A stretch of DNA of 64,000 nt, taken from the NCBI GenBank assembly GCA_017163975.1, contig JAFFSR010000316.1, positions 3,322,001 to 3,386,000 of the forward strand, in the 5' to 3' direction. The notes below the pieces were generated by a model. The model was not told where the DNA came from and made no database searches. It worked only from the letters and a program-made list of their open reading frames with translations. The stretch is from Anastatus disparis. Its lineage: Eukaryota; Arthropoda; Insecta; Hymenoptera; Eupelmidae. The position numbers were made by a program, and so were the translations under genes. Each line of letters opens with the position of its first letter. Positions within the stretch are counted from its first letter, which is position 1. This document shows, one piece after another, positions 23,736 to 54,802 of the stretch.

Positions 23736-23810
23736 AATACATCTTTGTAGTGGCTTGTATTTCTTTAGCTGTGTTACGAGGTTTGTGCTTTTTACTTTGT
23801 TGTCACATGT

Positions 23811-30344: not shown

Positions 30345-31304
30345 TTAATACTTTAATATCTTTGATTATTTTTTTTATTTTTAGATTTATTAGAACATAT
30401 TTAAGGTTAAATAGTTAAAAAACTATACTAATAAATCTATTAACAAATCTAAAAATAAAACAAATAAAAAATTGAGAAAGAAAATAAATTTATTTGACAA
30501 ACAATTTATGTGATTATGGATAATATCATTTATTGAGTTATTATTAAACATTAGATTACCTTAATTATATTGTTCAAAATTTCATACGCAAGTTGTATTC
30601 ACTTGCCGTAAAAGGGAAAATATTTACAGATGATTTTTATGCTATTTTAAATTCTTAATTAATTTAGGTACATAATAAATAATTGATAAATATTTCCAAG
30701 TAAAAAATACTCAAAGCCTGGTAGAACTAAGATTTATTGGTAATATCGTCACTACATATTTATGGATGATATCTGATAAAAATGTATTTGTACGTTTTCT
30801 TCAAAACAAAGTGCGTTTGAAGAAAGAAAATCTTATGATTGATTAAAAATGACTGTTTTAAATATTTTTCCGCAAATCCAGGTGTTTTTAGAAATTTTCT
30901 TCGTTATCGCTGAAATTTATTCGTTCTTTATAAAAAAATATTAAGTCAAGTCATTAAATATCAAATCAACTTAGGCAGTTTTTGTGTATATTCAATAGTG
31001 ATTTTTCACCTAACAGGTAAGTTAAAAAGTCTAAATATTGTCATTTAAAAAAATTCAATCATATTGTACACGTTATTTCCAACAAAAAAAGTTCTATTAA
31101 GTTTTTACAATAGTTTGATACTTTTTAATAGAAAATTTATTAAAACATTAATTTAACCAAAAAATTTGAGTAAATAAAAATATTCTATTACTTTGAATTT
31201 TTAACCACAAAATTTTTTATTTTTATTTTTGAAACCAAATGGAACATATTCCCAGACTCATTGATTTTTATTATTTAGCTGTGCAAATTGATGTGAAATT
31301 TTTC

Positions 31305-31305
31305 G

Positions 31306-31354
<49 letters not shown>
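31305..31354. repeat. (TA)n microsatellite, left arm
   Basis: Pure TA run. In the right arm the equivalent site is split into two TA runs (35041-35081 and 37315-37361) by an insertion. Confidence 0.95.
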
Positions 31355-31356
<2 letters not shown>

Positions 31357-31432
31357 ACAAGTTATATGGATTTAATGTTATAACTAAGAGTATTATTTTA
31401 TTATAATTTCATAAAATGGAATAAAATAATAT

Positions 31433-32252
31433 CCCTATTGAAAAAAAACACGTGTTTTTTACACGTGCAAAATACACGTGTTTTTTACATGTAAAATTTG
31501 CGTGTTTTTTCAAGCATTTTTTTCACGTGCTTTTTTCACGTGTTTTTGTTGACGTGAAATATTGTGAAAATTGAAAAAAAACACGTGTTTTTTGTATATT
31601 TTTTCATATTAAAAACTACGCATTTTTCATTAACGGACAATGAGAATGTTTTGTAAAGAGTATTTATAATACTTTATTTTGACCCTTTTGAAAAAAATAC
31701 GTTCTATCTTCATATATCTTGTGTCTTCGAAATTTGTATAGGGGATGACAAAACTGAGAAAAACGCCACCTAGTGACTTAGAGTCAGACTGACATAATCG
31801 ATCATCAATAGCGATTTTAAATCACTAGGTGGCGTTTTTCTCAGTTTTGTCATCCCCTATACAAATTTCGAAGACACAAGATATATGAAGCCAGACACTC
31901 TGGGTCTTAGAAGCTCTTCGATCTTCGAAGAGTTATAAAAAATACGTGTAGATAGAACGTATTTTTTTCAAAAGGGTCAAAATAAAGTATTATAAATACT
32001 CTTTACAAAACATTCTCATTGTTCGTTAATGAAAAATGCGTAGTTTTTAATATGAAAAAATATACAAAAAACACGTGTTTTTTTTCAATTTTCACAATAT
32101 TTCACGTCAACAAAAACCCGTGAAAAAAAGACGTGAAAAAAACACGTGAAAAAAGCACGTGAAAAAAATGCTTGAAAAAACACGCAAATTTTACATGTAA
32201 AAAACACGTGTAAAAAACACGTGTATTTTGCACGTGTTTTTTTTCAATAGGG
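31433..32252. mobile_element. Palindrome-array foldback element E5 (CCCTATTGAAAA ends)
   Basis: An 820-bp, almost fully self-complementary element. The arms run from CCCTATTGAAAA inward and consist of repeated CACGTG cores in A/T runs, followed by a longer paired block (31600-31790 with 31830-32040). The flanks are AT on both sides. The matching site in the opposite arm (near 34959-34972) is empty with a single AT, so the 2-bp duplication and the ends are certain. No ORF. Confidence 0.96.
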
Positions 32253-32504
32253 ATATGAACGAAAATTATTTTATATAAATTTCAAAGATATATTGGTATA
32301 TTTTTAAAAGTTTAAACTTTATATATCACTTTTTTCAAACAATTTTTAAACAGTGACTATTCTATTACATTAAAAAATACACAACCGTTTGCGAATAAAT
32401 TATTCTTTTTTGAAACTGTTAAACAAAATTTATTTTTCAAAAAGCTATATTGCACGGTACCTTAAAAATTTCATTAATAGTATCAAATATTTTCTAAAAA
32501 TGAT

Positions 32505-33412
32505 ATGAATGGTTTTTGCATAAATGGTATGGAAAAAAGCAAATTTTCGAAGGTTCTTTCATTAAATATAATTTCAACCACGAGAGAGGTTGAGATTTGA
32601 GACCTTGAGACACCTTGAGATTTGTTTTATTGAAGGAAATGTATCTGCCTGAACCTTAAAGGAACGGTAACTGGTCATTCGACCGTATGTTTTGCTAAAC
32701 GAAATATAGAAAGCATTTAATTAAAAATATATGTTGTTGTACAGTACTAAATATTTATGTTGTTTGAACAAATAATATAAATAATTATAAGACATAGGTT
32801 TTAATTAAAAAATCTAATCTAAAATTTTTGAATATAAATGTAATTACATTCATAAAATAAAGTTTTAATAAATTATTTGTTTGAAATTGAGAAAGAATTT
32901 TTACATAATGTTATACAATGAGAAAATAAATTAACTGTTAAGTTATACTGACTTCGATACTGCGAAATGCGCACGTCTTAACAGTTAAAATCACAATAAT
33001 TAAACAATTTTCATTTATTTAAATTTAAACATTCAGTATATAAATGAAATATGAGAAATAAGAAATAAAATATATTTTGTGTCTTTTTTTTGTGTCATTT
33101 TTTAATTAAAATATGTCTTATAATTATTTATATTATTTGTTCAAACAACATAAATATTTAGTACTGTACAACAACATATATTTTTAATTAAATGCTTTCT
33201 ATATTTCGTTTAGCAAAACATACGGTCGAATGACCAGTTACCGTTCCTTTAAGGTTCGGGCAGATACATTTCCTTCAATAAAACAAATCTCAAGGTGTCT
33301 CAAGGTCTCAAATCTCAACCTCTCTTGTGGTTGAAATTATATTTAATGGAAGAACCTTCGAAAATTTGCCTTTTCCATACCATTTATGCAAAAACCATTC
33401 ATGTCATTTTAC
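32505..33412. repeat. Inverted repeat in the centre of the giant element
   Basis: 32505-32812 pairs with 33108-33412 at high identity. Shared blocks include GACCAGTTACCGTTCCTTTA and its complement. About 300 bp of AT-rich loop lies between. Possibly a nested hairpin transposon. Confidence 0.85.
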
Positions 33413-33419
33413 TATTACT

Positions 33420-33442
33420 ACGTTTTTATTAACTCGCTTTGG

Positions 33443-33477
<35 letters not shown>

Positions 33478-34140
33478 TCGGTACGAATTTTGCAACCGAT
33501 TGTAAACTAACTTCCTGATGAGCTAGAGACTTGAAATTTTAAATATAGCTCGGAACTGGATGACAATGCAATATTATAAAAAAAATATATATATCTACCG
33601 AACAATATATTAATATATTCAATCATATACGGAGATGTTGGCAAAATTGAAGATTTGAAGATTTTATATATAGATACACTTTTAACATTAGTGTCTAAAC
33701 ATCTTCGAAAATTTAAAAAATCTTCTTTTGATATATTAATATATTAATATATTAATATATTAATATATCAAATATAGTAATATATTAATATAGTAATATA
33801 TTAATATATTAATATATCAAATATATTAATATATTAATATATCAAATATATTAATATATTAATATATTAATATATCAAATATATTAATATATTAATATAT
33901 TCAATATTATATTTTTGCATGCATTGTTGGATAATATAATTAAATATATATTCCCACCGAAAAATATATTAATACAATTATATACGGAGATATTGGAAAA
34001 ATTGAAATTTTGAAGATTTTATATATAGATATACTTTTAACATTAGTGTCTAACCATCTTCGAAAATTTTTAAAATTCTTTAACTTGTCATGTATTGCAA
34101 TTAGACATAAATTACAGCATTTTCTATTATACATATAAAA
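33420..34140. repeat. CTGT and TATTAA satellites with a direct duplication
   Basis: (CTGT)n at 33442-33478. (ATATTA)n-type repeats at 33733-33903. A block of about 110 bp containing ATATACGGAGATRTTGG and TTTTAACATTAGTGTCTAAC is present at 33605-33720 and again at 33965-34080. Confidence 0.85.
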
Positions 34141-34459
34141 TTGGAGACTGTATTTTATTCATTTTATGGTCTAACAATGCATAAAACAATAAATCTTGGT
34201 TAAATTTCTAATGGCGTCATTATCGTCAAAATGGCGGGAAACTCACCATGTGATTACGTGTTCTCTAAAAAAAATAGATGAAACACGTTTTAGTCCCTTG
34301 ACAACAATATATATGCTATATAATATGCACTGTTGGACAACACGATAAATAATATTATTAATAATAATAATAATACCAAAATGTATAAGATAATATTTAA
34401 ATAAAAAAATTTTCAATCTACCACGTTTTTTAATTGAACTGAAAAGTATAAAATAATAT

Positions 34460-34722
34460 TAAAAATAAAAAAAAAACTTTTTAATGTACCACGTTTTTAT
34501 AATGAACCAAAAGTATAAAATAATGTGTAATAAAATGAAAAATGAATAATGATTTTGAAATAAAAAAAACGTGGGGCGCATACAATACATAATAATAAAC
34601 ATGCGCCCCACGTTTTTTTTATTTCAAATCATTATTCATTTTTCATTTTATTACACATTATTTTATACTTTTTGGTTCATTATAAAAACGTGGTACATTA
34701 AAAAGTTTTTTTTTTATTTTTT
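34460..34722. repeat. Hairpin in the centre of the giant element
   Basis: Near-perfect inverted arms around a 20-bp centre: TACCACGTTTTTATAATGAA pairs with its complement near 34675. GCGCCCCACGTTTTTTTTAT near 34605 pairs with 34555-34575. Confidence 0.88.
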
Positions 34723-35039
34723 AGAAAATATTTGATACTATTAATGAAATTTTCAAGGTACCGTGCAATATAGCTTTTAAAAAAATGAGTTTTGTTTAAT
34801 AGTTTCAAAAAAGAATAATTTGTCCGCTAACAGTTGTGTATTTTTTAATGTAATAGAATAGTCACTGTTTAAAAATTGTTTGAAAAAAGTGATATTTAAA
34901 GTTTAAACTTTTAAAGATGTACCAATATATCTTTGAAATCTATTTAAAATAATTTTTGTTCATATATTATTTTATTCCATTTTATGAAATCATAATAAAA
35001 TAATACTCTTAGTTATAACATCAAATCCATAGAACTTGT

Positions 35040-35084
<45 letters not shown>

Positions 35085-35086
<2 letters not shown>

Positions 35087-37311
35087 GCATCCCTTGTCTC
35101 GGCTTCGCCCGCGCAATAGTTGGGCAGAAGTCGGTAGGTATAGAAATAGAATCTCAAAAACTATTATTTATTAAATCGTACTCTTACAAAACTTTGGAAT
35201 ACAATTTTTAATAAAAAAATCGTAAGTTATTAAAATGAAAGTGACATGAAAAAAGTACAAAATAATTTAATTTTTATCTTTAAAAATGACCAAAAATGAA
35301 ATCAATTAAAAAAATTTTGAAAAATAATTACATCAAAAAAAAATTTTTTTTTTCCATAATTATGTCGATTTTAGTAAACATAAACTAAAAATGACAATTC
35401 AAACTTTAGCACTTATTTATTGAAAAATGGCAAAAATATGAAATCAAAATAAAAAAATTTTTGAAAAAATGATTTCATTGAAAAAAATTTTTTTTCTTGA
35501 ATATGTAAATTTTTGTTCAAACTAAAAATGACAATTCAACCTTGAGCATTTTTTCTTGAATAAAATCGGTAAATATATCGGTAAATCTGGGAAACTTCAA
35601 ATTTGACCTCAAATAAAAACGGAAATAAAATTTTAAAGCAGACCGTTTAAAATGTTTTTTTGTTGTAGTAAATATTATAAAAGTTAAAACTAAATTTGTG
35701 TGCGTCATTATTGTTAAAAAAATATTATTTATACATCGTTTTGCTATAAATGCATCATTGAATAAAAAAGTATAAAATTTTTTTTCAAGTATGCAGAACC
35801 TTTTTTGGCTGTATGTATTTTTTATTCAATTTAATAACGGAATTTTTACATTAATTATAACTCAATTCAACGATCACACCACAAAAAATATACTTTAAAA
35901 TAATTGTGGTGATGTGAAAGCCAATTATCACTATTTTGAAAACCATGCACGTTTTAGTAAGTAATTTTCAAAATCATTTAAGCTTTAATCTACAAAAGGC
36001 ACAGTTACCATTGACGAATTATTTGATTCAATATGAAAAACTATTTAATTTAATACGTATAAAGTTGTGATAAATAAATAGTCATTTTTGAAAAGTCGCT
36101 AACTTTTAATAAAATCGAAAATTACAAAATATCAGTACCCTTTCTACTTTACTTCAAAATACTTATCTCAAAAAAGGCACACTTTTTTACCCTTCATTTT
36201 TCGAAAATATAGACATAAGAGAAAGTTTTCTATGAATTTCAAGACTGTAAAGTAATAGTCTTTTTTTTAATAAAGCTAAATACTTTTTTTTCGTAGCGTG
36301 GTACCCTTTGCAGTTAACAAAAAAATCATTATATATCTTGATTTTCTTCGGATGACGTATCACATAATTGCTTTATTATGAAGTACAAAGTCTTTTACAA
36401 TATTACTTACAATTTGCCACCTGTCAGGATGGTGTGCTACTCTCTAGGCCTGAGCTACGCAGCAGTAACCTAAATTTGAAAAGTTTCCCAGATCAACCTA
36501 TATATAATATTGAAAAAATGTATTTTTTCCGAAAATTTGCTGAAATATTTGTTTGAAAATATCACAGGATGATAAAATCAACGTTATTTGCAATTGTGTT
36601 AATAAATGAAAAAAAAAATTTTTTTTTTGAATAAAATTAACGTGTTTTGAAAGTGGGTCAAATATCTTATATTTTTTGTTAATATATTTTGAATGAAATT
36701 TTTAGAAAAAATCGCAAATCATACATAATTATTTGTTATTTTTAAAATTATTTTATTAACCATGAAGGGTTAAATTCTCATGTATGAGCCAATAAATATT
36801 TGAGGAATAAAAAATTTCCTTGAAATAAGATATAAAATCTTTTCTAAAGTTAAAAAAATTGTCAAATTTTTGATTCTGGCTAATGGAAAAAGAAAATATT
36901 TCATTAAATAATCCGAGGTAATATTACTCTGTGATTAGAGAATATGCAATAAAAATTTATTGTGTTGAAGTTACGGAATATCATAGGTATATAAGTATTT
37001 CTACCGTACCAGTTTAATAAAGGAAAAGACAAAATCGGTCGCCACCTATTGGGCAACCAAGGAAAGTAGCAAGGATAAAGCATGTTGACCGCAGAACGCC
37101 GAAAAAAAGTAGTCCCTATTCCCTACGCGTTAAGATCTAGGTCTATAATCATTTTATTACAATTATTGATTAAAAAAGTAATTATTTATATAGCCTATGA
37201 CACTCGTCACATTATAAAGAATTTAAATTTAAAATTTGAAATCGATCGGTTCTGTAGTTTTTGAGATAATTGAGAACATTCAAACAAACGCTGTCCTTTT
37301 ATATAATAGTA

Positions 37312-37316
<5 letters not shown>
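35085..37316. mobile_element. 2.2-kb insertion in a TA run of the right arm
   Basis: Absent from the left arm, where one TA run sits at the same place. It starts CATCCCTTGTCTCGGCTTCG with GCCCGCGCAA. It ends with CGATCGGTTCTGTAGTTTTT, CAAACAAACGCTGTCC and ATAATAGTAAGAT. This pair of end sequences is widespread in insect repeats and is usually linked to RTE-type LINE or derived elements. The middle is AT-rich with no recognisable ORF, so it is non-autonomous or decayed. Confidence 0.7.
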
Positions 37317-37364
<48 letters not shown>

Positions 37365-38727
37365 CGAAAAATTTCACATCAATTTGCACGGCTAAATAAT
37401 AAAAATCAATGAGTCTGGGAATATGTTCCATTTGGTTTCCAAAATAAAAATAAAAAATTTTGTGGTTAAAAATTCTAAGTAATGGAATATTTTTATTCAC
37501 TCAAATTTTTTGGTTAAATTAATGTTTTCATAAGATTTCTATTAAAAAGTATCAAACTATTGTAAAAACTTAAATGACAAAATGTAGACTTTTTACCTTA
37601 CCTGTTAGGTGAAAAATCACTATTGAATATACACAAAAACTGCCAAAGTTGATTTGATATTTAATGACTTGACTTAATATTTTTTTATAAAGAACGAATA
37701 AATTTCAGCGATAATGAAGAAAATTTCTAAAAACACCTGGATTTGCGGAAAAATATTTAAAACAGTCATTTTTAATCAATCATAAGATTTTCTTTCTTCA
37801 AACGCACTTTGTTTTGAAGAAAACGCACAAATACATTTTTATCAGATATCATCCATAAATATGTAGTGACGATATTACCAATAAACCTTAGTTCTACCAG
37901 GCTTTGAGTATTTTTTACTTGGAAATATTTATCAATTATTTATTATGTACCTAAATTAATTAAGAATTTAAAATAGCATAAAAATCATCTGTAAATATTT
38001 TCCCTTTTACGGCAAGTGAATACAACTTGCGTATGAAATTTTGAACAATATAATTAAGGTAATCTAATGTTTAATAATAACTCAATAAATGATATTATCC
38101 ATAATCACATAAATTGTTTGTCAAATAAATTTATTTTCTTTCTCAATTTTTTATTTGTTTTATTTTTAGATTTGTTAATAGATTTATTAGTATAGTTTTT
38201 TAACTATTTAACCTTAAATATGTTCTAATAAATCTAAAAATAAAAAAAAATAATCAAAGATATTAAAGCATTAATAACTGTATTTATAAATTATAAATTT
38301 TTAAAAATAGTTCAAAATTATGAATTCACATAATTACATGAACATTAAAAAAAATATATAAAAGGAAGTAAAAATTATCTTTTTTTCAATGTTATTATTC
38401 ATTAAGCAAGTGTGTTCAAAGCGTTGTCGCAATGCTTGAGATCGGCATTCAAAGCGAGCGACCACGCAATAAATCGCTGTATTCGGATTCAGCTTTCTGT
38501 GCCGTAGACTACGGAGAGCCGTAGCGAGCCACAATGCAGCTTAGTCGCAGCGCTCTGCTCCGATCAATGTAATCTTTTATACAGAAAGTTGGAATGATTG
38601 GCTGCGATATTGTTACGCACTCTTATATTGCGATTTTCCGTTATTAATAGCTGCGAATGTTGTCTGAATCATTCACAACAATCGACTCCGCAGCGTGTGC
38701 AATCGGCTTTTTTTTCAGTGTACTGTG

Positions 38728-41436: not shown

Positions 41437-42990
41437 ATGTCGCTAGTGATGAAACCAGCAGAAAGGAATTATACAACAACCAAAAAGGAATGTTTGGCCA
41501 TAATATACGCTGTTTTACATTTTCGTCCATACCTCTACGGACGACAATTCACGCTCGTAAGCGACCACAAACCACTCAAACGGATAGATTCAGTAAAACC
41601 ACCAATTCAACGGTTAATAAGATGGAGAACTCGATTAAGAGAGTACGAATACAAGTTTCTCCACAAACCTGGTAGACTAAATGTCAATGCTGATGCATTA
41701 TCTAGGAACCCGATACCAGAAGAAGCAATAGCATTACCCACGAGTTCGTCTACCAAATTCGAGGCCCCAGCGCCCCCGAAACCACGAGATCGACCACCTG
41801 GAGTTAAGAATAAGCCTCCAGATCAATTATCGACATCAACCACAACAGGTGCAACCATCGCTGATCGAGTTAGGAACCGACGTGCACGCGAGGAACCAAT
41901 TCCTGCTCGAGCTTCACGTCCAAACGAAAAACGAAGTCGTTCAGAGCCACCCCCAACAAAACCAGCTCCGCAAAAACCTGCCGAACCAGTTCCAAAGGTT
42001 ACCGATTTGAACCATAAACAGCTAGTAAGTTCGGGCTCGCTCCCACAGAACAACGTTCCCTCTGTCCCTATACCATCCACTTCCTCAAACGATAATGTAC
42101 TCAAACCAATAAGACCAATAAAATATACAAAAAAGGTAACGTTCGAGACTAACGAAGAATCAGACTCGAATAATGCACCCCCAGTGCCACGTAAACGATT
42201 TAGCGGATTCTCAAGTTTGGTACCGCAAGGACCACCCATAACCAAACAGACCTTATCACAAGACGAACAAACAAATGACGAAGAAGAAACCATGCCAACA
42301 AAACAAAACATAATCGAGTCAGCCCCTTGGAAGAGCTCGAACTCCGAAGAGTCTGCATTAGTCGACGAGTACTGGTGGGACGAAACAAGCTATAGGCCTC
42401 GACCCATAGCTCGCTGTACTCCAGTGGACCATGAACCAAGCAACTCCAATAACCAATCACGTCTCAGAAATGGGTTACACCCTATCATAGAAGATAGTAG
42501 TACCGACGATTCCTCAACGGAAGAAAATGAAGAAATTCACTATACCCCTTCCAAGATATCTGATACCATATCTCCAGAATTATTCTATCCTGAATTCATA
42601 AAAACACCAAATAGTGTGCTACAAATCAGGCTGATAAATGAGAGCCTCACACATAAAAAGGATAATTTACTCCACTTTATATCTGCGGATTGCGAATTCA
42701 CCACACCAGTAGCAAAATTATTAATAGACCTAAACCAGTTGGACAAGCATGAAATGAAGAAATTAAAACCAAAACAAGGACAAGTATTAGTAACACCAAG
42801 AACCAAGACATATTTACTAAACGCCGTTCTCACCAACAGAAACTTCGAAATCTTTTCAGAACAAGAACTCCGAAATACACTCAAAAACCTAGCAGAGTGC
42901 ATAAAGGAGTACGACATCAAAACTTTACGTATCTCTAAACAGAACAACTTAATTACAAAATATCATTTTCAACTTTTCTGCAAATACTAA
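41437..42990 (+). pseudogene. pol: RNase H C-terminus and long pol linker
   Basis: An uninterrupted 517-codon frame. Residues 1-90 complete RNase H (YTTTKKECLAIIYAV, LVSDHKPL, NADALSR). Residues about 95-360 form a low-complexity region rich in Pro, Ser, Asn and acidic residues, with RPPG, PPPTKPAPQKP and DSSTDDSSTEENEE stretches. Residues 370-517 are a more ordered segment (FISADCEFTTPVAKLLIDL; GQVLVTPRTKTYLLNAV) that I recall from other gypsy-type Pol proteins upstream of integrase. The linker is long for this group. Its function is unknown to me. The frame changes near 42970-42990 before integrase. Confidence 0.85.
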
Positions 42991-44086
42991 AGGAATCATT
43001 AAACCACTGCGACTGCAAAATTTTTATTTGCTACGGATCAACCACTACACCCCCAGACGACATGAGAAAACGAATTATTGAAGAATTTCACTCAAGTATG
43101 TTAGGAGGCCATAAAGGAGTAACAAAAACATACAGGAGAATCAGAGAAAAATTCTTTTGGAATGGAATGAAAGAAGACGTAACAGAGTACGTCAGGACCT
43201 GCCAACAGTGTCAGAAACTAAAATTAGTACGAGTCAAAAATAGAGAACCAATGATTATCACGGATACACACATTGACCCATTCGACAAGATATCGATCGA
43301 CACTGTAGGACCTCTACCAATCACCCCAGATGGTAACCGACACATATTAACTATACAGGACAATTTAACCAAGTATTGCATAGCTGTTCCTGTTAAGAAC
43401 ACCCAAGCCGAAACCATTGCAGATGCCTTAGCCAGACACGTAATATCCCTTTATGGCTCACCACGCGTCATTTTATCCGACAAAGCACCGGCTCTCATCG
43501 GAAACGTTATGCACCAACTAGCAAAAATATTCAAGATTCAACAAATCACGACTTCCGGATATCATCCCCAATCAAATGGATCACTTGAAAGAAGCCATAT
43601 TGTACTGACAGAATACATCCGACAATACATAGAAAAATACGAGGACTGGGACAAGGTAGTACCATTTGCCATGTTCTCATACAATATAAGCGTACACGAA
43701 TCAACCGGATTTACACCTTTCGAACTAATCTTTGGTAAACCAGCAAGAACACCAAGTTCACTGCCCATGGACAAGTTTGACACTTACTCTTCCTATATGG
43801 TAGAACTTATCAACAGATTACACGATTCTAGGAAAATGGCGTCAGAATCTCTGGTATCCTCAAAACACAGAAACAAACAATATTACGACGGAAGGACTAA
43901 AGCACACCCTTAGGCGACCTGGTATACGCAATTGAAGAACTTCGACAAAACAAACTTGATAAGACATACAAAGGTCCTTACAAAATAACAGATCTTTTAG
44001 AAAAACACAATGTTGTCCTAGAAGACGAGACTGGGAAACGTCTATTAAAACACTTAGACAAGATTAAACCTGCTCACCACCAATAG
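42990..44086 (+). pseudogene. Integrase
   Basis: The main frame is 43062-43913. An HHCC zinc finger (FHSSMLGGHKG, CQQC) is followed by a catalytic core with Asp in SIDTVGP, Asp in LSDKAP and Glu in SNGSLERSH. The last two are separated by 35 residues, the DD35E signature. After a one-frame slip at about 43908 the C-terminal part continues to 44086 with YKGPYKI, a GPY/F module. Integrase inserts the viral DNA into the host genome. The first codons before 43062 lie in a frame offset from the preceding linker. Confidence 0.92.
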
Positions 44087-44097
44087 AACGTTTCGTT

Positions 44098-44101
44098 TCA
44101 G
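44098..44101 (+). promoter_or_regulatory. Splice acceptor-like site at env1 start
   Basis: CGTTTCGTTTCAG ends one base before the ATG at 44102. A pyrimidine-rich stretch and CAG match a 3' splice site, as expected if env is expressed from a spliced RNA. Inference from sequence only. Confidence 0.6.
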
Positions 44102-46029
44102 ATGTGGATTCCTGTTTTAGCCTTAGCCTCAGTTGCATCTGCCATCGACAACAACTACGCTATACAACAATTGACAAATAACCCAGGAATATATTATGAA
44201 AAGCTACAGGACATACGATATACTGAAGCAAATTGGAAAATAGTAGTCTTTATAAATATGAAATCATTACATTATAATGCAACCTTTATAGAAGACACGC
44301 TTCAAGGACTTATACACCAATGTTCCCACGAAAAAAAAATACCCTGAACTTTGTGATCCAATGGTGAAGAGAATGTACGTTTTAAAAATAGAAAACAAGC
44401 TAATAACCCAAATCCATGACGACCTAATTGATGCGATGAACGAAGTGGAACCCATGGAAATTGAGTCACCCAACAATCCTACCATGAAGAAAAGGAGTGT
44501 TCCCTTTGGATTCATAGGCAGCATCAGCAGATCACTCATCGGAACTCTTTCCACGGATGACGGAGAAATATATGAAAAACAAATTAACGAATTATTTAAT
44601 GGACAAAAAGAAATAGCCAAAATCGCAAAGGAAGGAACACACATAGTCCAACATAAGTTAGCATCAATGGCTAACCAAATCAACGAAAATAAGGATTACA
44701 TTTATAAAACCTATGGATTTTATTTAAAAGCAATCAAAGATTTCGAAAGAATAAACGAACTAGCTAATTACGCTAAAATTATGGAAAACTTCTCAGGTAC
44801 GATAAACTACATAGAAACCGCGCTCAACCAATACAAAGAGACTTTTAGAACACTAAAGGATATCGTACACGCCGCAAGAATTGGTCATGTGCACCCATCA
44901 TCAATGACTACTGTTAACCTACAACAAGTCATTAGGCAAATAACCGATTTACACTCTGAACACGAATTTCCTATCCCTATCACTCACGCACGAATGGAAA
45001 AATTAACAGAAATAGCGACCATTCGACTAGGATTTAGAAATACCAAATTCCTGATAGAGATCAGTGTACCTATGTTAAATAAATTTCCTACCGAATTGTA
45101 CAAAACACATCCGGTACCAATCGCACAACAACAAGATGACCACCTAGTCACAGCATTTATCACTCCCCAAGCTCAATATATCTCATTGAGTAATGATAAA
45201 AGATCCTACAGTCTCTTATCCGACTCAGATCTAAAATCATACAAACCCGCATTACATTATAGAATATGCACTAATAACGCACCGATATTCGACGCAAACA
45301 ACGATCCAGCGTGTGAATACTTACTTCTAAATTAACCAAGTAACAAGGTCTTCGATGAATGTCCAGTGGATGGATGGCTTTACTCAGTTCACAGCCGAAA
45401 CATATACTACAGTACAAATACTATGTCCAGGACAAGGGCACGAGATCATAAAAATATCAGCAGTCGGAATAATACAGTTAAGACCCAGATGTTCAGCCAG
45501 GCACAACCACGTAACACTCACAGGACTCAAAACATTAGGAACATCTTTAGAATTTCTATACCCACCACAAATCCATTTAAATATCACGAAAATAGACGGA
45601 AATATCTTCAGAAAAATATCCACACTCAACGAGTCCCTACCATTTCTACCACTAAGGCGTGCCGTTGGACAACTAGAGCCAGATTTGAAACTAGACGAGA
45701 TACAAAATAAATATGATAAGATTATAACGAAAACAAACAATGAAAAATTCACAAACTACGTTTCGTACGGAACAATAGGATTAAATACGTTAATAGTAAT
45801 AGTAGTAATTATACTACTAATCATAGGCTGCCTTAGATGTAACAAAAATCGTCTTCACGAACAGAATCCACAACAAAATTCCGACGATTATACTTTCAAT
45901 GTTCTACGACCCACAAACGTAATAGAAAATCCACCCCATATTTACCACGTGCCCAGAGCTTCACCACGAGCACATCATAACTCACTATCATCAAATGAAC
46001 CAGAAACTTATACAGACGATGAGAATTAA
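44102..46029 (+). pseudogene. env: env1, F-type envelope glycoprotein
   Basis: Three frames: 44102-44347, 44361-45335 and 45355-46029. The start has a hydrophobic signal peptide (WIPVLALASVASA) followed by a conserved NPGIYYEKLQ block. A basic KKRS precedes a glycine/hydrophobic GFIGSISRSLIGTL stretch, the arrangement of a furin-type site and fusion peptide in errantiviral and baculoviral F proteins. A helical segment, a YKTHPVP block and a Cys-containing ectodomain follow. A membrane anchor is near 45790-45845 (TLIVIVVIILLIIG) and then a cytoplasmic tail of about 60 residues. Breaks lie near 44345 and 45335. It would mediate membrane fusion in an intact virus. Confidence 0.88.
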
Positions 46030-46057
46030 CTTTGAAACTCTCCCCCTCAACTATTAC

Positions 46058-46059
46058 AG
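46058..46059 (+). promoter_or_regulatory. Splice acceptor-like site upstream of env2
   Basis: TCCCCCTCAACTATTACAG ends 21 bases before the ATG at 46081. Consistent with a spliced env2 message. Inference only. Confidence 0.5.
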
Positions 46060-46080
46060 GAAGGAACTTAGAAGACCAAA

Positions 46081-47555
46081 ATGACCACCTTAGTAAAAAT
46101 TTGGATGACAGCAATTATGATACACATAGCGTATTCCAGGATTAACAAAGTCTCAATAACCTACCTAACAACGAACCCAGGCATATACTTCCAATACATT
46201 GGACCTGTATTACACCAAAACGACCAGTGGACAAAACATGCAACAGAACCATTCCAATATGTCAACTATATTATTCACAAACAAGAGATATCGTAAGACT
46301 TCTCGATCAAGCTAATATATTGCTATCAACCATAAGTCAATTAGCCCTACCAAGTGCAGCTGATGAAACTCCTACAACAGTCACCAACAACATAGACACG
46401 GAACTTACGAGATCTCGAAAAATAGCAAAGGAACTCCAAGATATTCAAAACTCCGTCAAGTTCAGAAGGAACGATGCCCTTGCTTACACAATCCCTGATT
46501 ATGTACTCTTAATCCAGCCGAAGCTAGACAAAATAAGAGAGTTCTTAATATTACATATCGATCTATATAAACTAATACTGGAAATTATAGAATCAGCGCG
46601 AACAAACAAACTAAACCAAAACCTATTTACAACTCAAACGATAAACAATATATTTCAATACATAAAATTGAAACCAAACACCACGCTCTCTATGCCCCAA
46701 CCATTCTCAATCAACGCTTATAAAACGATATCATGTATAGCGAAAAGGTCAAACGATGACGTGTACATCGGAATTAACGTCCCACTCTACGCAGAAGTCA
46801 ATTTCACGCTCTATCGTACATATCCTGTCCCTGTACCAGCTACCTCTACAGTTATAATACCACAAGAAAAATACATAACAATATCGATTGACGGAAAAAA
46901 CCCACATATTTTACTCAGAAGAGGAAATAACCAGCTGTGTGAGAATGAAAGAAGCAACATATTACAATACTCCTAGGAAGACTAACTCGGAAACAATATG
47001 CGAAACCCAGCTCCTTCTTAACAAACCTGCGAAGGAGTGTGACACAAAAACAATACGAAACTTTAACAACACGTGGAGACACCTACAGAACACAAATGCT
47101 TGGATCTTTTCAGTCTCAGACAGGGAAAAACTCTGTATAGTTTGTGATAATCATCAAGAAGAAAACATCGAAATGACAGGAATAGGTAAAATCGAACTCC
47201 CGTTCGGATGTCAAGCTTCAACAAGAGACACATTACTAACAGCATCAGCAAGCACAAATAAAATCAAACAATATTTCCGCTACACCAAGGCCGTGACCAT
47301 GGCAATAGAAAAGGACACTATAATAACCACAAACAAATTTGATAACCTAATATACAAAATCATCTCTATAATATCTCTTCTATTAACCACTAGCATTAGA
47401 ATAACGTGGATCATCAAAAAGAATAAAAAGTACATACTACAAAGGAACAATGTGGAAATCCAGAAAGAAATACCATCAGTACTCACCCAAGAACAAGAAA
47501 AACTGTACATAAACTCCATCAATATTTACGACACAGTTCCCCACCACAGGGAAAT
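46081..47555 (+). pseudogene. env: env2, second envelope paralogue
   Basis: Frames 46081-46296, 46227-46976 and 46888-47555 together have the layout of env1: a hydrophobic start (TLVKIWMTAIMIHIAYS), a TTNPGIYFQYIGP block like NPGIYYEK, a helical middle, an LYRTYPVPVP block like YKTHPVP, Cys residues, and a membrane segment (IISIISLLLTTSIRITWII, about 47365-47420) with a basic tail. A furin-like site and fusion peptide equivalent to env1 are not evident. Two frame changes near 46290 and 46920 disable it. A run of 20 A follows an AATAAA at 47553-47575. It is a paralogue of env1 by architecture and motifs; overall identity is low by eye. Confidence 0.8.
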
Positions 47556-47714
47556 AAAAAAAAAAAAAAAAAAAATTGGTATAGAGAGGAAGCTACATAA
47601 GGTCAATCGATTTCCCTTACTACAGACTCCAGCCTTATACTCTTACCATCACTATTTTTCCTTACACCAACCTATCACTAATATTTTCCACCCAAACCTT
47701 GTAGTCTCTATTTT

Positions 47715-47729
47715 CTTTCCTTTCCACAG
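47715..47729 (+). promoter_or_regulatory. Splice acceptor-like site at env3 start
   Basis: TTTCTTTCCTTTCCACAG ends immediately before the ATG at 47730. This is the best acceptor match of the set: an uninterrupted pyrimidine tract and CAG. Confidence 0.65.
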
Positions 47730-50700
47730 ATGCAAGTTCTGATACTACTCGCCCTACTTACCTCCCCCTTAACCTACTCCACGGGAAGCAATCTACCCTA
47801 CTTCATCATTGATATTGAACATCCATCAGGGCTTTACTTCAAAAACATAGGAAAATTTGCCTATAAAAACTCAAACTGGACCTTAACGACAACTATAGAC
47901 CTAGATCTAATCAATCCAGAAAGAAAAAACGTTGGACAAAAATTTGAAGATATCTACGCCAATTGTCCAAAAATACTTAAAATATGCCAAGCAATACTCA
48001 ATCAAACCAACCATTTTTATAGTAGCATCTCTACAGCCCACACAGCATGAAATATTGCAATGAAACTTTCACTGAAATATTGTGCTGAAATATTGTCACA
48101 AGATTGCAGCAATCTTGTCTTAACATTGCTAAGAGGTTTCATGAAACATTTCAGTGTGATATTGCTGCAAACTTGCTACAAGGTTACAGAAAATAATTCA
48201 AGCAATATTGCAAGGAACCTTTCATGAAAGGTTGCAGCGAGGTTTTTGCAAGGTTTTATAAAACATTTCATGAAATATTGCGAGAAACCTTTCATGAAAG
48301 GTTGCAGCGAGGTTTCTGCAAGATTTTAAAAACAATTCATGAAATATTGCAAGAAAACTTTCATGACATGTTTCAGCGAGGTTTCCAGCAAGATTTAGAA
48401 AACATTTCATAGAATATTGCAAGAAACCTTTCATGAAAGGTTGCAGTGAGGTTTCTGAAAGATTTTAGGAATATTTCATGAAATATTGCAAGAAACCTTT
48501 TATGAAAGGTTGCATAGAGGTTTCCAGCAAAATTTAGAAAACATTTTATAAAATATTGCAAGGAACCTTTCATGAAAGGTTGCAGCAAGGTTTCTGCAAT
48601 ATTTTAGAAATATTTCATGAAATTTCGCAAGAAACCTTTCATGAAAGATTGCAGCGAGGTTTCTGTAAGATTTTAGAAATATTTCATGAAATATTGCAAG
48701 AAAACTTTCACGAAAGGTTGCAGCGAGGTTTTCAGCACGATTTAGAAATTATTTCATGGAATATTGCAAGGAACCTTTCATGAAAGGTTGCAGCGAGGTT
48801 TCTGCAAGATTTTAGAAATATTTCATGGAATATTGCAAGAAAACTTTCACGAAAGGTTGCAACGAGGTTTCTGCAAGATTTTAGAAACATTTCATGAAAT
48901 ATTGGACGAAAACTTTCACGACATGTTTCAGCGAGGTTTTCAGCAAAATTTAGAAAACATTTCATGGAATATTGCAAGAAACCTTTCATGGAAGGTTGCA
49001 GCAAGTTTTCTGCAAGATTTTAGAAATATTTCATGAAATATTGCAAGAAACCTTTCATGAAAGGTTGCAGCGCGGTTTCTGTAAGACTCTAAACACATTT
49101 CATGAAATATTGCAAGAAAATTTTTATTATATGTTTCAGCGGGATTTTCAGCAAGATTTAAACAACATTTTGATGGAATATTGCATCGAACTTTCTATGA
49201 AAGATTGCAGCGAGCTTTCTGCAAGATTTTAGAAACATTTTATAAAATATTGCAAGAAACCTTTCACAAAAGGTTGCAGCGAGGTTTCTGCAAGATTCTA
49301 AAAACATTTCATGAAATATTGCAAGAAACCTTTCACGAAAGGTTTCAGCGAGTTTTCCAGCAAGATTTGGGGAACTTTTCATGGAATATTGCATCGAACT
49401 TTCTATGAAAAATTGCAGTGAGGTTCCTGCAAGATTTTAGAAACATTTTATGAAATATTGCAAGAAACCTTTCATGAAAGGTTTCAGTGAGGTTCCTAGC
49501 AAGATTTGGGGAACATTTTACGAAATATCGCAAGAGACCTTTGATGAAAGGTTGCAGCAAGGTTCGTGCAAGATTTTAGAAACATTTTACGAAATATTGC
49601 AAGATACCTTTTATGAAAGGTTTCAACGAGGTTTCCAGCAAAATTTGATGAATATTTTATGAAATATTACGAGGTATCTTTTGTTAAAAGTTGCAGTAAG
49701 ATTTCTGCAAGGTTTTTGACAAGATTTCTAAGATATCACAAAAAATATTGCTATGTAGATTTCGCCAATGGTTATTACCATATTTTTGGCAATCTTTATA
49801 AAATATTCCAGAAAAGCGTTTCACAAAAAGTATCAGCAAAGTTTCATGAATAATTTCAAAATGAAATTGCAGCAAACCTTTCATAAACAGTTTCAGCAAT
49901 AATTCCGCAAGTTTTTATAAAAGATTCTAAGAGCAGTCCAGATTCGCTGTTCTTGCCTTATATTTGGTTTCCTGTTATTTACTCAAGTATTTATTGCTGT
50001 AGTTTTATTGTAAACGGGAAGTTGTGCGCAATAAGTATGCTATTATTATAAATATTTATGCGTAGGGTAAAAAAATCCATCGAATTGTTATTGAAAGAAG
50101 TAAAGAACGCATAAATATTAGAAACAAAACCTTTTATTTCAATATTCTCTACTTTTCTCAAAAACGATGCTGAGGAATTTTTTCTTCTTGTGCACAAATA
50201 TTGATAATAATACTATTGCGCTCAACTAGTAATTCATAGATACAACGATTGATACTTAAGCAAATAAGAAAAACTTTATCACACAAGGATAGAAAATCCT
50301 GCCTACTATTAAATATTACTGCAGCAAGCTTTTGGCGAGATTTAAGAAATATTTTACAAAATATTGCAGGAAACCATACGGAAAGGTATGAGCATTGTTC
50401 GCAGCAAAATTTGGGAAAAATTTCATGAAATATTACGAGAAACCTTTCATGAAAGATTGCTGCAAGATTTCTTGAAATGTTGCTGCGAGGTTTTTAGAAA
50501 TATTTCAACCGGGTTCTAGCGCGGACATATAAATGTTGCTGCAATATCTCATAAAAAGTTGCTACGAGGTTTTCTGCAAGGTTACGGTGAGATTTTCTGA
50601 AAAATTGCTGTGTGGTTGCTTGAAATGTTTTTGATATTTTTCCCGCAAGATTTCTGTGAGGTTTCTTGAAATGTTTCTGTTACATTTCCTGAAAGATTGC

Positions 50701-52304
50701 TGCGAGGTTTCCTGCAAGGTTGCGGCGAAGTGTTCTAAAAGATTGTTGCAAGGTTTCTTGAAATGTTTCTGTTACATTTCCTGAAATATTGCTGTGAGGT
50801 TTTCATGAAAGGTTACTGTGAGGTTTTCTGAAAGATTGCTGCGAGGTTTTTAGGAAAATTTCAACCGGGTTCTAGCGCGGACATATAAATGTTGCTGCAA
50901 TCTTTTATGAAAGGTTGCTGCGAAGTTTCGAAACTTTCATGAAACCTTGCAGCAACCTTGCAGCAATCTTTCATGCTGTGTGGGAGCTGAAGGAATATTT
51001 AACGATATTAAACACAGCTTATTACAACAAACCTACTTCAAGAAAAAGCGAAAAGACTAAACAACACATTTAGACAGCTGAACTATGCATACTTCACTCA
51101 TATCTCAGAAGCTCAATTTATGGACAATAAATACCTCGCGAAACTTGGAAATTGGTCTGAAACAATGGAGAATAACATAAAGCAATACATGGGATTATGT
51201 TACAATACTTTCAGTACCCTGAATGCAATTATCAATGGTACCCTCGGAACACACCTATTTACTCAAGAAACCATTACCCGGATAATCAGAGAAAATAATA
51301 ACGGATCAACGAAATCTAGTTTTCCGCAGGTCGACCCATTTTTAACAGGATTACGAGGCTTTCTTCACATCCAGCTCAGCAATACAAACGCAACCATATA
51401 CATCACAGCCACCTTCACCACGTACACCCAAGGAAGATACAATCTATACCAGATGCATCCATTCCCAGTACCACGGGAATTCGGACTCTCTATTGATGTA
51501 GAACCTACATTCGTCTTCCTCGTAACCAAAGAAAGGACAATGACGCATTCATTCATGAACCCCAATCACCTGAGGAAATGCACGGAAATTGAAGGAACTT
51601 TTTACTGTCCCCAACCACAGAAATCATATGGTCGTAGCTGCCAAATGTCTTTACTAACGGACTCTGAAAATAAAGAACCAGAAGATTGCAGGATACGCAC
51701 GACCAGACAAAACACCACAAGATGGGTTCCGCTATCAAGTGGTAACCAATGGATATACTTCGCCGTTCATCAGGAATTCGTCACTATTTTTTGTCCAAAC
51801 GACCAACACGCGGCGATATTACACGGAGTAGGACTTTTTCAACTGGATAAATCATGTGTGGGTAAAACTGAATATTACGACATCAAACCACGGCTTAAGA
51901 CTGAAACTGATGCTCCATTGTATATCTACGATTATCAACCCAACACACCGGCTGTTGCACTTTTCAACCCTTTTGGATCGATCAGCATACTACAGAGCAA
52001 ACATATCCTAATCAAAATAATATATGTACTGATCACCGGATATTCAATCTTGATTATTATTATGATGACCGCATTATTACGCACAAGGCGACGAAACAGA
52101 TCTCGTAATATACTGCCATTACCACCTCCAAATATTATATCTCGAGACATGGCCATGGAACTCTGCGTAACTCCTCGAACATACAACCGGGAATACACAT
52201 CGATATTGGATGAAGAATACAAACCAAACGCGCATTTTTCACCCGTCAACTGCGACTACGAAGAACCACTATCGCCACCACCAAATACTCAAACCATCGA
52301 TTAA
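47730..52304 (+). pseudogene. env: env3, third envelope paralogue, split by element E3
   Basis: The first part is 47730-48036: signal-like MQVLILLALLTSPLTYS, then a HPSGLYFKNIGKF block corresponding to NPGIYYEK of env1. It is cut at 48036 by a 2.9-kb transposable element (48037-50984) and resumes at 50985. The second part has one frame change near 51040 and a long frame to 52304. That frame contains a YQMHPFPVP block, several Cys residues in an ectodomain, a membrane segment (about 52000-52070, IIYVLITGYSILIIIMMTALL), an RTRRRNR basic stop-transfer and a cytoplasmic tail of about 65 residues. It follows env2 closely and is the third copy of the same module. Confidence 0.88.
48037..50984. mobile_element. 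Palindrome-array element E3 (CCCACACAGCATGAAA ends), inside env3
   Basis: Perfect inverted ends CCCACACAGCATGAAA (with a mismatch just inside) are flanked by AG on both sides (48035-48036 and 50985-50986), a 2-bp duplication. The left array (48060-49920) has a unit of about 68-70 bp built from CCTTTCATGAAAGG, TTGCAGCGAGGTTT and ATTTCATGAAATATTG. A non-repetitive core lies at about 49925-50310. The right array (50320-50980) has diverged units, including a repeated CAACCGGGTTCTAGCGCGGA block (50508 and 50868). Many frames of 60-90 codons run through the arrays on both strands; they are repeat translations. Confidence 0.95.
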
Positions 52305-52499: not shown

Positions 52500-52973
52500 A
52501 TGATTAAAGGAATCTGTGCCACTCAAGACCCCAAAATCAAGGCCGTTTATTACAACACAGTGAGCCGCAGAATTTTGTGAAGCATTTGTTTCAGCACCAC
52601 CGAACATACTGGGCGCTACGAAAAACAAACCTGGTTCCACAGATTCTCCCAATTCACCGAACCTCTCTATTGTAAATGTTACAATTGTAGCAAATACCTA
52701 CTAACATTAAAAACGGCCTGCAAATGTATAGCTTGCATTATGACGGCCCTACAACACTTGGAAGAAATCAACGCCATAGGAGGGAAACAGATTTATGATA
52801 CCTACGGGAGAATTAATACAAAAGAAAGAGGACCGGCCATGTGTCGTCAAAAGACCCCTCCCCCGAAGGGATTACCAAATCTCTACTCGGAATCGAAGCC
52901 CGAAAAAAAACATCAACAGTGCATACTGCACGAAAGCTCAACTACCGGCGCACTACAGCAAGATGAGCCGTAA
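52500..52973 (+). pseudogene. Small Cys-rich ORF x1 with internal TGA
   Basis: The frame opens at ATG 52500, has a TGA at 52578-52580, then stays open to 52973. After the TGA it reads SICFSTTEHTGRYEK and later CKCYNC and CKCIAC, pairs of Cys suited to binding zinc. It is similar to the next ORF at CFSTT, the Tyr/Lys and FH residues, the C-x2-C pairs and a final Q-H-x-x-x-IN. Alignment to that ORF places a Cys where this one has TGA. The second half (52800-52973) has no counterpart and is Lys/Pro rich. I do not recognise the family; a nucleic-acid-binding accessory protein is one possibility. Confidence 0.65.
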
Positions 52974-53217
52974 GGTCATTTGCGAGAAATGTTTTTCGAC
53001 AACCACGAAATACAAAAAACACTACAAGCGTTATACTCGCTTCCACAGTATTTGCCTGCCCGGAGTCCAAGAGCGACGCTGTGACTACTGTCAAGTTTTA
53101 CTACTGTACACTAGAAGAGCCAACTCCTGTAAGACTTGTAAAAAAGCCGCACATCAACACCGATTTCAAATCAACGATGAAGGTGGCACCCTCGTCAACT
53201 CCCATGATATAACCTAA
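52963..53217 (+). CDS. Small Cys-rich ORF x2, paralogue of x1
   Basis: 84 residues from ATG 52963, which overlaps the stop region of the preceding ORF by a few bases in a different frame. Cys pairs occur at VICEKC, RRCDYC and CKTCKK, with His residues between (KKHYKRYTRFHS and AAHQH). This looks like two zinc-binding knuckles. The Lys/Arg-rich composition suggests RNA or DNA binding. A longer frame beginning at 52795 reads into it, but its extra N-terminus is the shadow of x1. It is intact, unlike most of the virus. Function unknown. Confidence 0.6.
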   Translation: MSRKVICEKCFSTTTKYKKHYKRYTRFHSICLPGVQERRCDYCQVLLLYTRRANSCKTCKKAAHQHRFQINDEGGTLVNSHDIT

Positions 53218-53459: not shown

Positions 53460-53795
53460 ATGGAATTCGTCCACAAAATAAACGTGCTTTTGAGGTTTGG
53501 GTTCTACCCCAAAACGGAGCCATGTCACAGCTACGACATAAACGATATTGATGTCAACGATCAATGTAGACACTGCAACCAACCATATGAGGCACGGCCG
53601 ATTATTCGGATGATATACCACGATCTGATTTCAATTCTCATAATAACACAAGAACAAGAAAACCGCCTCTTTTCCCCTCCAGAGATGGTTGCTCTAAGAG
53701 AATTCTACATGGTGGGGATACGAAGACCCAGACCAAGACGTCCTCCTCCGGATAGCGACGACGACGATGGCTACCATTCCGAACCTCCTAGATAA
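53460..53795 (+). CDS. Small ORF x3 with CxxC and acidic tail
   Basis: 111 residues, intact. A CRHC pair and an upstream Cys (PCHSYDINDID) may bind zinc. The C-terminus is arginine/proline rich (RRPRPRRPPPDSDDDDGYH). It lies between x2 and the LTR, where extra genes are uncommon in errantiviruses. An ATTTTCTTTTGTCTC pyrimidine tract lies just upstream, without a clear AG. No family recognised. Confidence 0.5.
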   Translation: MEFVHKINVLLRFGFYPKTEPCHSYDINDIDVNDQCRHCNQPYEARPIIRMIYHDLISILIITQEQENRLFSPPEMVALREFYMVGIRRPRPRRPPPDSDDDDGYHSEPPR

Positions 53796-53927: not shown

Positions 53928-53962
53928 TCATCGAGGACGATGAACCTTCCTAACCAGGGAGG
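53928..53962 (+). promoter_or_regulatory. Hairpin and polypurine tract
   Basis: GTTCATCG-AGGA-CGATGAAC forms a perfect 8-bp stem with a 4-base loop. It is followed by AGGGAGG directly before the LTR. Such a tract primes plus-strand DNA synthesis in Ty3/gypsy elements. Confidence 0.7.
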
Positions 53963-54802
53963 TGTAACAAACTCAGATCCTCGTTTATTAATAATTATTT
54001 AAAATTGTACTGTTTTTTTCTCTTTTTCTTTCGCTAAGATTAAAGAAATGAACTTGTCGCTCTTCACATCTGTGAGCCACACGCACGGGTCACGTCGCTT
54101 ATCTCTAATGACCCGCTGTGACCTATGACGCATCTACTAGCTTCTCTAGTAGTAACGAAACACTTTTTTTTCTCTCACCTCATAAATTCAATACTTTATG
54201 GGGCCATTAATTAGACTAGACTCATAAATTAACACTATCTGAAGATTTCTTCAAAATCTCAGATATATATATAAGCTTATAGGTCCATACAAAAAAGTTT
54301 CATATTATAGTAGTCATTTAATAACTGTACGTCGCTAAGACCAAGGGTCAATAATTGTTAAAAAGCCATCGAAGGCACAGACTAAAAGTCAACCAATAGA
54401 AAAAATCCAAGTTTGTTTTAAAATATATGTATTCTGTAGTAAATCGCAATTGTGTACAAAAAAAACGAACAATATAAAGAAATTCAAAATATACAAAATA
54501 ATAAACTTAAACTGTGTATAATTATCAAGAAAATTAAACCATATATATTCCATACATATATAATTAAGAAGCGAGGATTAATATCCAAGACCAGCTACAA
54601 GGTGAGTCTCAATTAAATTACAATTCATTTGCTTATTTCTAATTCTAAAAACTGGCTCTCGAGCCTGCTTAATAAACTTACCCGCTACTCTAACCCTCTG
54701 CCACGCAAAAGCTTTCTATTGTGTAACCGCTCGATGCAGTAGGAACTGTAACGCGCGAATAAATTAATAATAATAAAAATTTATTAACGTTCGGACGTTA
54801 CA
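53963..54802 (+). repeat. 3' LTR, 840 bp
   Basis: It begins TGTAAC and ends GTTACA, an inverted hexamer with the usual TG...CA ends, immediately after the polypurine tract. A TATATATATAAGC element near 54263 may be the promoter, and AATAAA near 54757 may be the polyadenylation signal. No matching 5' LTR exists in this window, so the element is truncated on that side. Confidence 0.8.

Follow-up and report, generated by a model that had tools for sequence, protein, structure and literature searches.

Three tandem, paralogous genes for F-type envelope proteins (env1, env2 and env3) lie at positions 44102-52304 of a 64,000-nucleotide stretch of Anastatus disparis DNA (assembly GCA_017163975.1, contig JAFFSR010000316.1, positions 3,322,001 to 3,386,000 of the forward strand), between the integrase and the 3' long terminal repeat (LTR) of one decayed Ty3/gypsy provirus. 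The whole stretch is referred to as the window. We lean towards a reading in which env1 is the fusogen, and env2 and env3 are non-fusing companion glycoproteins made from their own spliced mRNAs, likely for attachment.

The env module and its motifs

A first-pass annotation of this DNA had claimed that the three genes share one module, and the comparisons bear this out. Each gene has a signal-like start (judged by eye; that of env2 is weak in hydropathy), an NPGIY-type block, an LYxxxPxP block, a Cys-bearing ectodomain, one strong C-terminal hydrophobic stretch that would be the anchor (KD19 peaks of 2.99 in env1 and 2.51 in env3), and a tail. In env1, the signal-like start and an F2-like part precede the basic site and the fusion-peptide-like segment; the helical middle, the ectodomain, the anchor and the tail follow. 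None of the three genes is intact in the window: env1 and env2 are each spread across three reading frames, and env3, which spans 47730-52304 with its insert, is interrupted by about 2.9 kb of foreign DNA and by a frame change.

At least one piece of each gene matched the Pfam family Baculo_F (PF12259), with E values of 4e-22 and 2e-7 for pieces of env1, 1e-9 for env2 and 4e-10 for env3. The N-terminal piece of env3 (E = 2e-4) fell under the Pfam cut-off, and three other pieces (the C-terminal one of env1, and the first and the C-terminal one of env2), each searched alone, had no match to PF12259. In a distant copy of the element in the same genome, locus L039, three full open env frames matched the family with E values of 2e-48, 5e-16 and 2e-14. 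We also built an env1 profile from seven outside relatives (P0001-P0007), which were found in a protein search with env1, and ran it on the 343 six-frame open reading frames (ORFs) of at least 50 amino acids in the window. The eight env pieces were the top eight of the 343; the weakest two, both short and N-terminal, had E values of 0.002 and 0.019, against 0.13 for the best ORF outside env. By sequence, env1 also matched the solved F chains 9w4c/9w4d (E = 3e-13; 7e-21 for a related copy). No outside relative of env2 or env3 was found among 1721 candidates for the env3 piece and 4471 candidates for an env2/env3 alignment, and scans of viral contigs with env1, a second env1, the integrase and the accessory gene acc1 returned no relative.

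Pairwise tests between env pieces, with 300 shuffles each, gave z scores of 6.0-7.6 for the N-terminal pieces and 6.9-8.8 for the middle pieces. The C-terminal pieces of env2 and env3 scored 16.4 against each other, while that of env1 scored only 2.8 against env2 and 2.2 against env3, so env2 and env3 are mutually closer. The three genes are therefore all related, but they are not three equidistant paralogues: both the shuffles and the tree given below group them as env1 + (env2, env3).

The claim that only env1 carries a basic site followed by a fusion-peptide-like segment held in the window and across diverged families. In the window, env1 has KKR and then FGFIGSISRSL, and env2 and env3 have neither part; the basic site reads M-K-K-R and is not the canonical furin site R-X-X-R. 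We searched 22 loci (21 fetched from the host genome, plus the window) with two patterns for a basic pair followed by an F.F[IVL]G-type motif. The motif occurred in 12 of them, once in each; every occurrence was in env1, and env2 and env3 had none. The basic site was K-K-R after M or I in 11 of these loci and F-K-R in L033. In the other 10 loci, that part of env1 was deleted, frameshifted, changed or absent. At the corresponding place, env3 of L039 has a degenerate segment (by eye) that lacks a basic site.

Each env start also lies at or near a splice-acceptor-like signal. A start could be placed for env1 in 16, for env2 in 17 and for env3 in 20 of the 22 loci, of which those of the same family are not independent. 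A YAG directly preceded the ATG at 16 of 16 env1 starts and at 18 of 20 env3 starts (L038 being assigned by position), and such env1 and env3 starts were present in every family sampled. For env2 this was so at 3 of 17 starts (the one in L037 may belong to env3); at the other 14, a YAG with a pyrimidine-rich tract lay 16-33 nt ahead of the predicted start. The distance from acceptor to ATG in env2 was the same in all 11 window-family loci that retain an env2 start, the window included. For comparison, a YAG directly preceded 180 of all 3020 ATGs in these loci (6.0%), and in 62 of the 3020 (2.05%) it came with a pyrimidine-rich tract. Among 349 AG sites in the window, ranked by three ad hoc scores, the acc1 acceptor came first, that of env3 third, second and third, and that of env2 fifth, tenth and fifth; random ATGs equalled the acceptor scores of acc1, env3 and env2 in 0.4-1.5% of 20000 draws. 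The signals for several spliced subgenomic mRNAs, as in a complex retrovirus, would be these conserved acceptor-like sites. Since the env of Drosophila endogenous retroviruses (ERVs) is made from a spliced mRNA, according to the cited part of PMC12992720, splicing at the env acceptors is plausible by analogy.

Sibling copies and genome census

Sibling copies were sought with acc1 in the 939-Mb host assembly; 20 stretches were fetched, and L039 was added later. Ten of the 11 siblings nearest to the window (L019-L029) retain env1, env2, env3 and acc1, each whole or in part, in the order of the window; the remaining one, L023, has lost env2 and most of env1. Only part of env1 is left in L020, L022, L024 and L027. 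In sibling copies the env3 pieces lie close together, without the gap made by the insert in the window. The first-pass annotation had named siblings with a single env as the finding that would make the other two genes a local artefact, and no such element was seen among these closest copies.

The arrangement extends to distant families. L034, L035, L036 and L039 too have three env modules with acc1 behind them, and their open frames are long, among them env2 of 544 and env3 of 516 amino acids in L035, and env1, env2 and env3 of 675, 510 and 609 amino acids in L039. L037 and L038 contain env1 and env3 and, in part, another module, with additional DNA in between. In L032 and L033, env1 and env3 were 36-37% and 54-55% identical to those of the window, and env2 was undetectable; in L030 and L031, env3 was seen with no clear env1 or env2.

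A genome-wide census was compiled from the coordinates of six genome searches (E of 1e-5 or better), clustered at a gap of 4500 nt; it counts matches, not intact genes. The rows entered were 124 of 124 for env1, 84 of 84 for env2 and 112 of 150 for acc1 (38 were omitted, mostly second matches at places already entered). For env3 they were 103 of 103, 85 of 93 (8 cross-matches of at most 29% identity were dropped) and 35 of 74 (at least 54% identity), and an env3 row at a distance of up to 350 nt from one of env2 was counted as an env2 cross-match. The counts are lower bounds, as only the best candidates were scored in each search.

The census contained at least 104 env1 clusters, and at least 60 of them had env1, env2 and env3. 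All 60 were in the order env1-env2-env3, 47 of them with acc1, and they lay on 55 contigs. The three-env count was 57 at a gap of 3500 nt and 61 at 6000 nt. Among the matches listed, the remaining clusters were 7 with env1 and env2, 23 with env1 and env3, and 14 with env1 alone. The window itself was counted among the 7, because its insert places env3 too far off. By our reading of the table, 14 of the 23 env1-env3 clusters have env1 of the 34-39% type and belong to the two-env lineage of L032/L033; some of the other nine have space for an undetected env2. Several of the 14 env1-alone clusters are fragments, and they are not proof of single-env elements, because the searches score best candidates only. 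An earlier pass, made before the 35-row env3 set was included, gave at least 56 three-env clusters, 11 with env1 and env2, 21 with env1 and env3, and 16 with env1 alone; over those 56, the median spacing was 2237 nt from env1 to env2 and 1714.5 nt from env2 to env3.

These counts bear on whether the array could be a local artefact of nested proviruses or of an assembly error. The locus does hold nested inserts, at 48037-50984 and 29420-38722. Against an artefact stand the one gene order in at least 60 clusters on 55 contigs, the median spacings given above, and the single polypurine tract (PPT) and LTR that follow the genes; the window has no other copy of the LTR. We give an artefact almost no credence. 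Insertion of more than one provirus, nested or in tandem, was rejected on the genome census and the lack of another LTR copy in the window.

Descent, selection and possible roles

A tree was built from 26 sequences over 144 columns, one of 27 rows having been dropped for coverage. In it, all env2 and env3 sequences clustered as one clan, with an SH-aLRT of 99.9 and a UFBoot of 100, to the exclusion of env1 and of the outside sequences P0001, P0003 and P0004. The env2 of the window family grouped with those of L034 and L035 (90/74). Most env1 branches were short, and those of env2 and env3 were long. The view of the first-pass annotation that the duplication is not a recent one is supported.

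The ratio of nonsynonymous to synonymous substitution rates (dN/dS) was estimated by the method of Nei and Gojobori; many between-family pairs were saturated in dS. Between L036 and L039, dN/dS was 0.27 for the integrase, 0.17 for env1, 0.30 for env2, 0.22 for env3 and 0.21 for acc1. L035 and L037 gave 0.10 for env1, 0.14 for env3 and 0.20 for acc1, and L035 and L034 gave 0.22 for env2 and 0.21 for env3. Over all between-family comparisons with a finite, though high, dS (1.1-2.8) and at least 200 codons, dN/dS was 0.15-0.27 for env2 and 0.14-0.23 for env3; a shorter comparison of env2 over 69 codons (L039 versus L034) gave 0.49. As judged from these ratios, env1, env2 and env3 are under purifying selection between families, and the low values indicate that env2 and env3 are maintained much like env1.

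Identity to the window differed strongly among genes in L032 and L033: 54-55% for env3, 36-37% for env1 and 81-84% for the integrase. Because the identities differ so, the comparison suggests that env modules have been exchanged between elements.

We infer the following scheme. The predicted membrane fusogen would be env1, and env2 and env3 would be non-fusing companions that serve attachment or receptor choice, presumably on the particle, with each of the three proteins made from a separate spliced mRNA. An env1-like gene would have been duplicated and one copy would have lost the cleavage site and fusion segment; a second round of duplication or diversification of this non-fusing copy would have followed, still ahead of the split into the present families, and env genes may since have been swapped between lineages. 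The division of roles that the first-pass annotation had suggested may exist, and would fit the selection on all three genes and the motif-less state of env2 and env3.

Several observations weigh against this scheme. The env1 genes of L032 and L033 lay nearer to the env2/env3 clan than the other env1 genes did (98.2/99). The env3 genes of different families formed no single supported clade, and for this reason the third position may not be held by one orthologue. In env1 of L039, FGFIG is replaced by FRFIG, and the env1 frame of L029 (1813-3711 in env orientation) is open, lacking only the cleavage/fusion-peptide segment. A two-env lineage exists among the copies, so three env genes are not obligatory. 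In sequence searches, the env3 piece and the env2 and env3 of L039 matched no solved structure beyond chance, which leaves their fold unconfirmed, and the AlphaFold model of the env3 piece (pLDDT 42) was unusable for a fold search. The env1 acceptor ranked low and has a weak pyrimidine tract, and acc2, the second accessory gene, has no acceptor-like site within 60 nt. For env3, dN/dS was raised in two close pairs, to 0.42 (window versus L031) and 0.45 (L033 versus L032). Within the window family, the medians were 0.48 for the integrase and 0.57-0.86 for the env pieces, with the C-terminal piece of env1 the highest, and 0.24-0.49 for the accessory genes; the raised values are as expected of decaying copies.

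It could be argued from such ratios that env2 and env3 are functionless passenger duplicates decaying with the provirus. All three env genes are broken in the window, and the window-family medians for the env2 and env3 pieces (0.57-0.63) and the env3 ratios of the two close pairs are in keeping with that view. Other families nevertheless have long open frames for env2 (510-544 amino acids) and env3 (516-609 amino acids), dN/dS for these genes is 0.14-0.30 in the longer between-family comparisons and in L036 versus L039, and the acceptor-like sites at the starts are conserved from family to family. We therefore consider passenger duplicates very improbable.

On the other hand, env2 and env3 may be membrane or secreted proteins that act outside the entry machinery, by blocking superinfection, serving as decoys or blunting host defence. 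They have no cleavage/fusion motif and yet keep the leader, the Cys pattern and the anchor, and they change fast between families. Precedents are found in the cited parts of two papers: the duplication of G and GNS in ephemeroviruses (PMC4334499), and the F-like gene of AcMNPV, deletion of which alters the time to kill larvae but not the titre in culture (PMC4864199). The conserved anchor and cytoplasmic tail, however, fit a particle protein equally well. We judge a decoy or interference role unlikely, although it ranks next after the companion-glycoprotein reading. A further alternative is that env2 and env3 join env1 in mixed complexes and regulate its folding or triggering, with no part in receptor binding. 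Mixed assembly is conceivable, since all three have the Cys block and some of the middle region in common, but the env proteins are strongly diverged, and we regard this alternative as improbable.

The provirus, its neighbours and known systems

The coordinates of the features are collected in Table 1. The gag region of the provirus starts at about 38723, where it abuts a 9.3-kb element (29420-38722). Self-comparison of the 64-kb window revealed no second LTR copy, and the 5' end of the provirus and a full gag are missing. The RNase H and the integrase scored above the Pfam cut-off; the protease (E = 0.006), a reverse transcriptase piece (E = 8e-5) and gag (E = 0.1) were all below it, as broken pieces in the expected order. 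The order protease-reverse transcriptase-RNase H-integrase, followed by env, PPT and LTR, is that of an env-carrying Ty3/gypsy element in the broad sense. The GGGAGG/TGTA junction of PPT and LTR was also present in siblings and in L030, L032, L033, L034 and L035, and a GPY motif was found in the C-terminal part of the integrase in the window and in 15 of the 21 fetched loci.

Table 1. Positions of provirus features and of the env3 insert in the window
Feature	Positions	Strand	Remarks
Integrase, H2C2 zinc domain and rve core	43062..43913	+	Pfam PF17921 E 2e-24, PF00665 E 8e-10
Integrase C-terminal piece, KGPYK (GPY-type) motif	43901..44086	+	next frame
Splice-acceptor-like TTTCGTTTCAG	44091..44101	+	abuts env1 ATG; weak pyrimidine tract
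env1	44102..46029	+	frames 44087-44347, 44292-45335, 45331-46029
KKR basic site, then VPFGFIGSISRSLIGTL fusion-peptide-like motif	44487..44555	+	env1 only
Splice-acceptor-like tract ending ACAG	46040..46059	+	21 nt upstream of env2 ATG
env2	46081..47556	+	frames 46072-46296, 46146-46976, 46879-47742; 3' end uncertain (poly-A run)
Splice-acceptor-like polypyrimidine tract	47709..47729	+	CAG abuts env3 ATG
env3 N-terminal piece	47730..48036	+	
Foreign insert in env3, 69-70-nt minisatellite units	48037..50984	.	ends CCCACACAGCATGAAA / TTTCATGCTGTGTGGG
env3 C-terminal piece, anchor and tail	51012..52304	+	430 aa open
acc1, Cys-rich, two homologous CxxC-type domains	52500..53217	+	one in-frame stop, one frame change
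acc2, small open frame	53460..53795	+	111 aa; conserved in siblings and other families
Polypurine tract AGGGAGG	53956..53962	+	adjoins LTR
3' LTR, TGTAAC...GTTACA	53963..54802	+	single copy in window

The two halves of acc1 resemble each other (shuffle z of 8.8). In the host genome acc1 has at least 150 match rows, and it is kept across families (L033, L034, L035, L036 and others). No Pfam match reached the cut-off for acc1 or acc2, the acc1 profile had no match in the Protein Data Bank (PDB), and one acc1 frame and one acc2 frame had no NCBIfam match. From its sequence, acc1 could be a zinc-ribbon regulator that binds RNA or DNA. The acc2 product has an acidic tail, with a median dN/dS of 0.24 among siblings, and L031 and L036 each contain two acc2-like matches in tandem.

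A domain at 42541-42987, between RNase H and integrase, was present in 12 of the 21 fetched loci, most of the others stopping short of the region. Its sole PDB matches (5 of 5) were to the macro domain TARG1/C6orf130, at E values of 0.4 for the single sequence and 0.036 for the profile, which are not significant alone; the AlphaFold model of this segment failed (pLDDT 34). The insert in env3 has 16-bp inverted ends and looks like a minisatellite-bearing, non-autonomous DNA element. The element of about 9.3 kb adjoining the truncated gag has long inverted ends (29420-31354 and 37316-38722) that are 93-95% alike and appear, by eye, to be TA-flanked. Elsewhere in the window, a tandem array at 17761-20366 has a period of about 280 nt and was about 97% alike at a one-period shift in the self-comparison, and a 1003-amino-acid open frame at 23769-26780 has reverse-transcriptase-like motifs by eye (LINE-like).

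In the usual description, a retrovirus or env-carrying retrotransposon has a single env that serves both binding and fusion. The cited part of PMC12992720 describes insect ERVs with one env-F. In Drosophila errantiviruses and other insect ERVs (gypsy, ZAM, Idefix, springer), too, an F-type env comes after a Ty3/gypsy pol, and this env has a signal, a cleavage site, a fusion peptide and an anchor, as far as the cited parts of the literature describe them. The element in the window differs from these in having three env and two further genes, a GPY motif in the integrase and the LTR ends TGT...ACA. In strict errantiviruses the integrase lacks GPY/F and the LTR ends are AGT/AnT, according to the cited part of PMC5408687. 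By these two markers, the element described here is outside the errantivirus genus in the strict sense; it also has three env genes and not a single spliced env-F. This corrects the first-pass annotation, which had placed the element among the errantiviruses.

The F protein of baculoviruses resembles env1 (PF12259; 9w4c/9w4d). Like env2 and env3, the F-like protein of group I nucleopolyhedroviruses (Ac23) has no cleavage site; the cited part of PMC4864199 describes this protein as lacking the furin site and having lost fusion while still being present on virus membranes. It offers a precedent for env2 and env3 as companion glycoproteins that do not fuse. In group I baculoviruses the non-fusing copy stands beside a different fusogen (GP64), whereas here it stands beside its own paralogue. 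In ephemeroviruses a surface glycoprotein gene was likewise duplicated into G and GNS and the second copy diverged, as the cited part of PMC4334499 relates. Those viruses have one extra glycoprotein copy, and the element here has two. To our knowledge, neither the ephemeroviruses nor their glycoprotein is related to this element. The LTR retrotransposons of bdelloid rotifers likewise have extra genes (captured ORF3) 3' of pol and spliced messages; the cited part of PMC5408684 describes no tandem env paralogues in them, and gives the TelKA env as paramyxovirus-like.

No multi-env insect element was among the literature matches listed, although the survey of Chary and Hayashi 2025 (eLife 108449), which covers 289 representative metazoan errantiviruses as mentioned in the cited part of PMC13172572, may include some. 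Provisionally, we take this Ty3/gypsy lineage, in which env paralogues stand in tandem and accessory genes follow, for a new form of a known type of env-carrying element. With two or three selected env paralogues at scores of loci, one can ask how duplication separates binding from fusion, and whether env modules pass between elements.

Complex retroviruses (lentiviruses and spumaviruses) have several post-pol genes, small non-structural ones included, probably expressed via alternative splicing. We know of none with more than one env each. The conserved acc1 raises the possibility that a multi-gene organisation arose in Ty3/gypsy elements independently of the complex retroviruses of vertebrates. 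More tentatively, and with the chances somewhat against it, entry may be shared out, with a conserved fusogen working beside two fast-changing partners that do not fuse membranes but pick the cell or receptor. Each of the three would have a spliced mRNA to itself, and a zinc-ribbon-like accessory protein would manage the splicing. Duplication of a single gene would then have given a retrovirus what paramyxoviruses have in their distinct proteins for fusion and for attachment.

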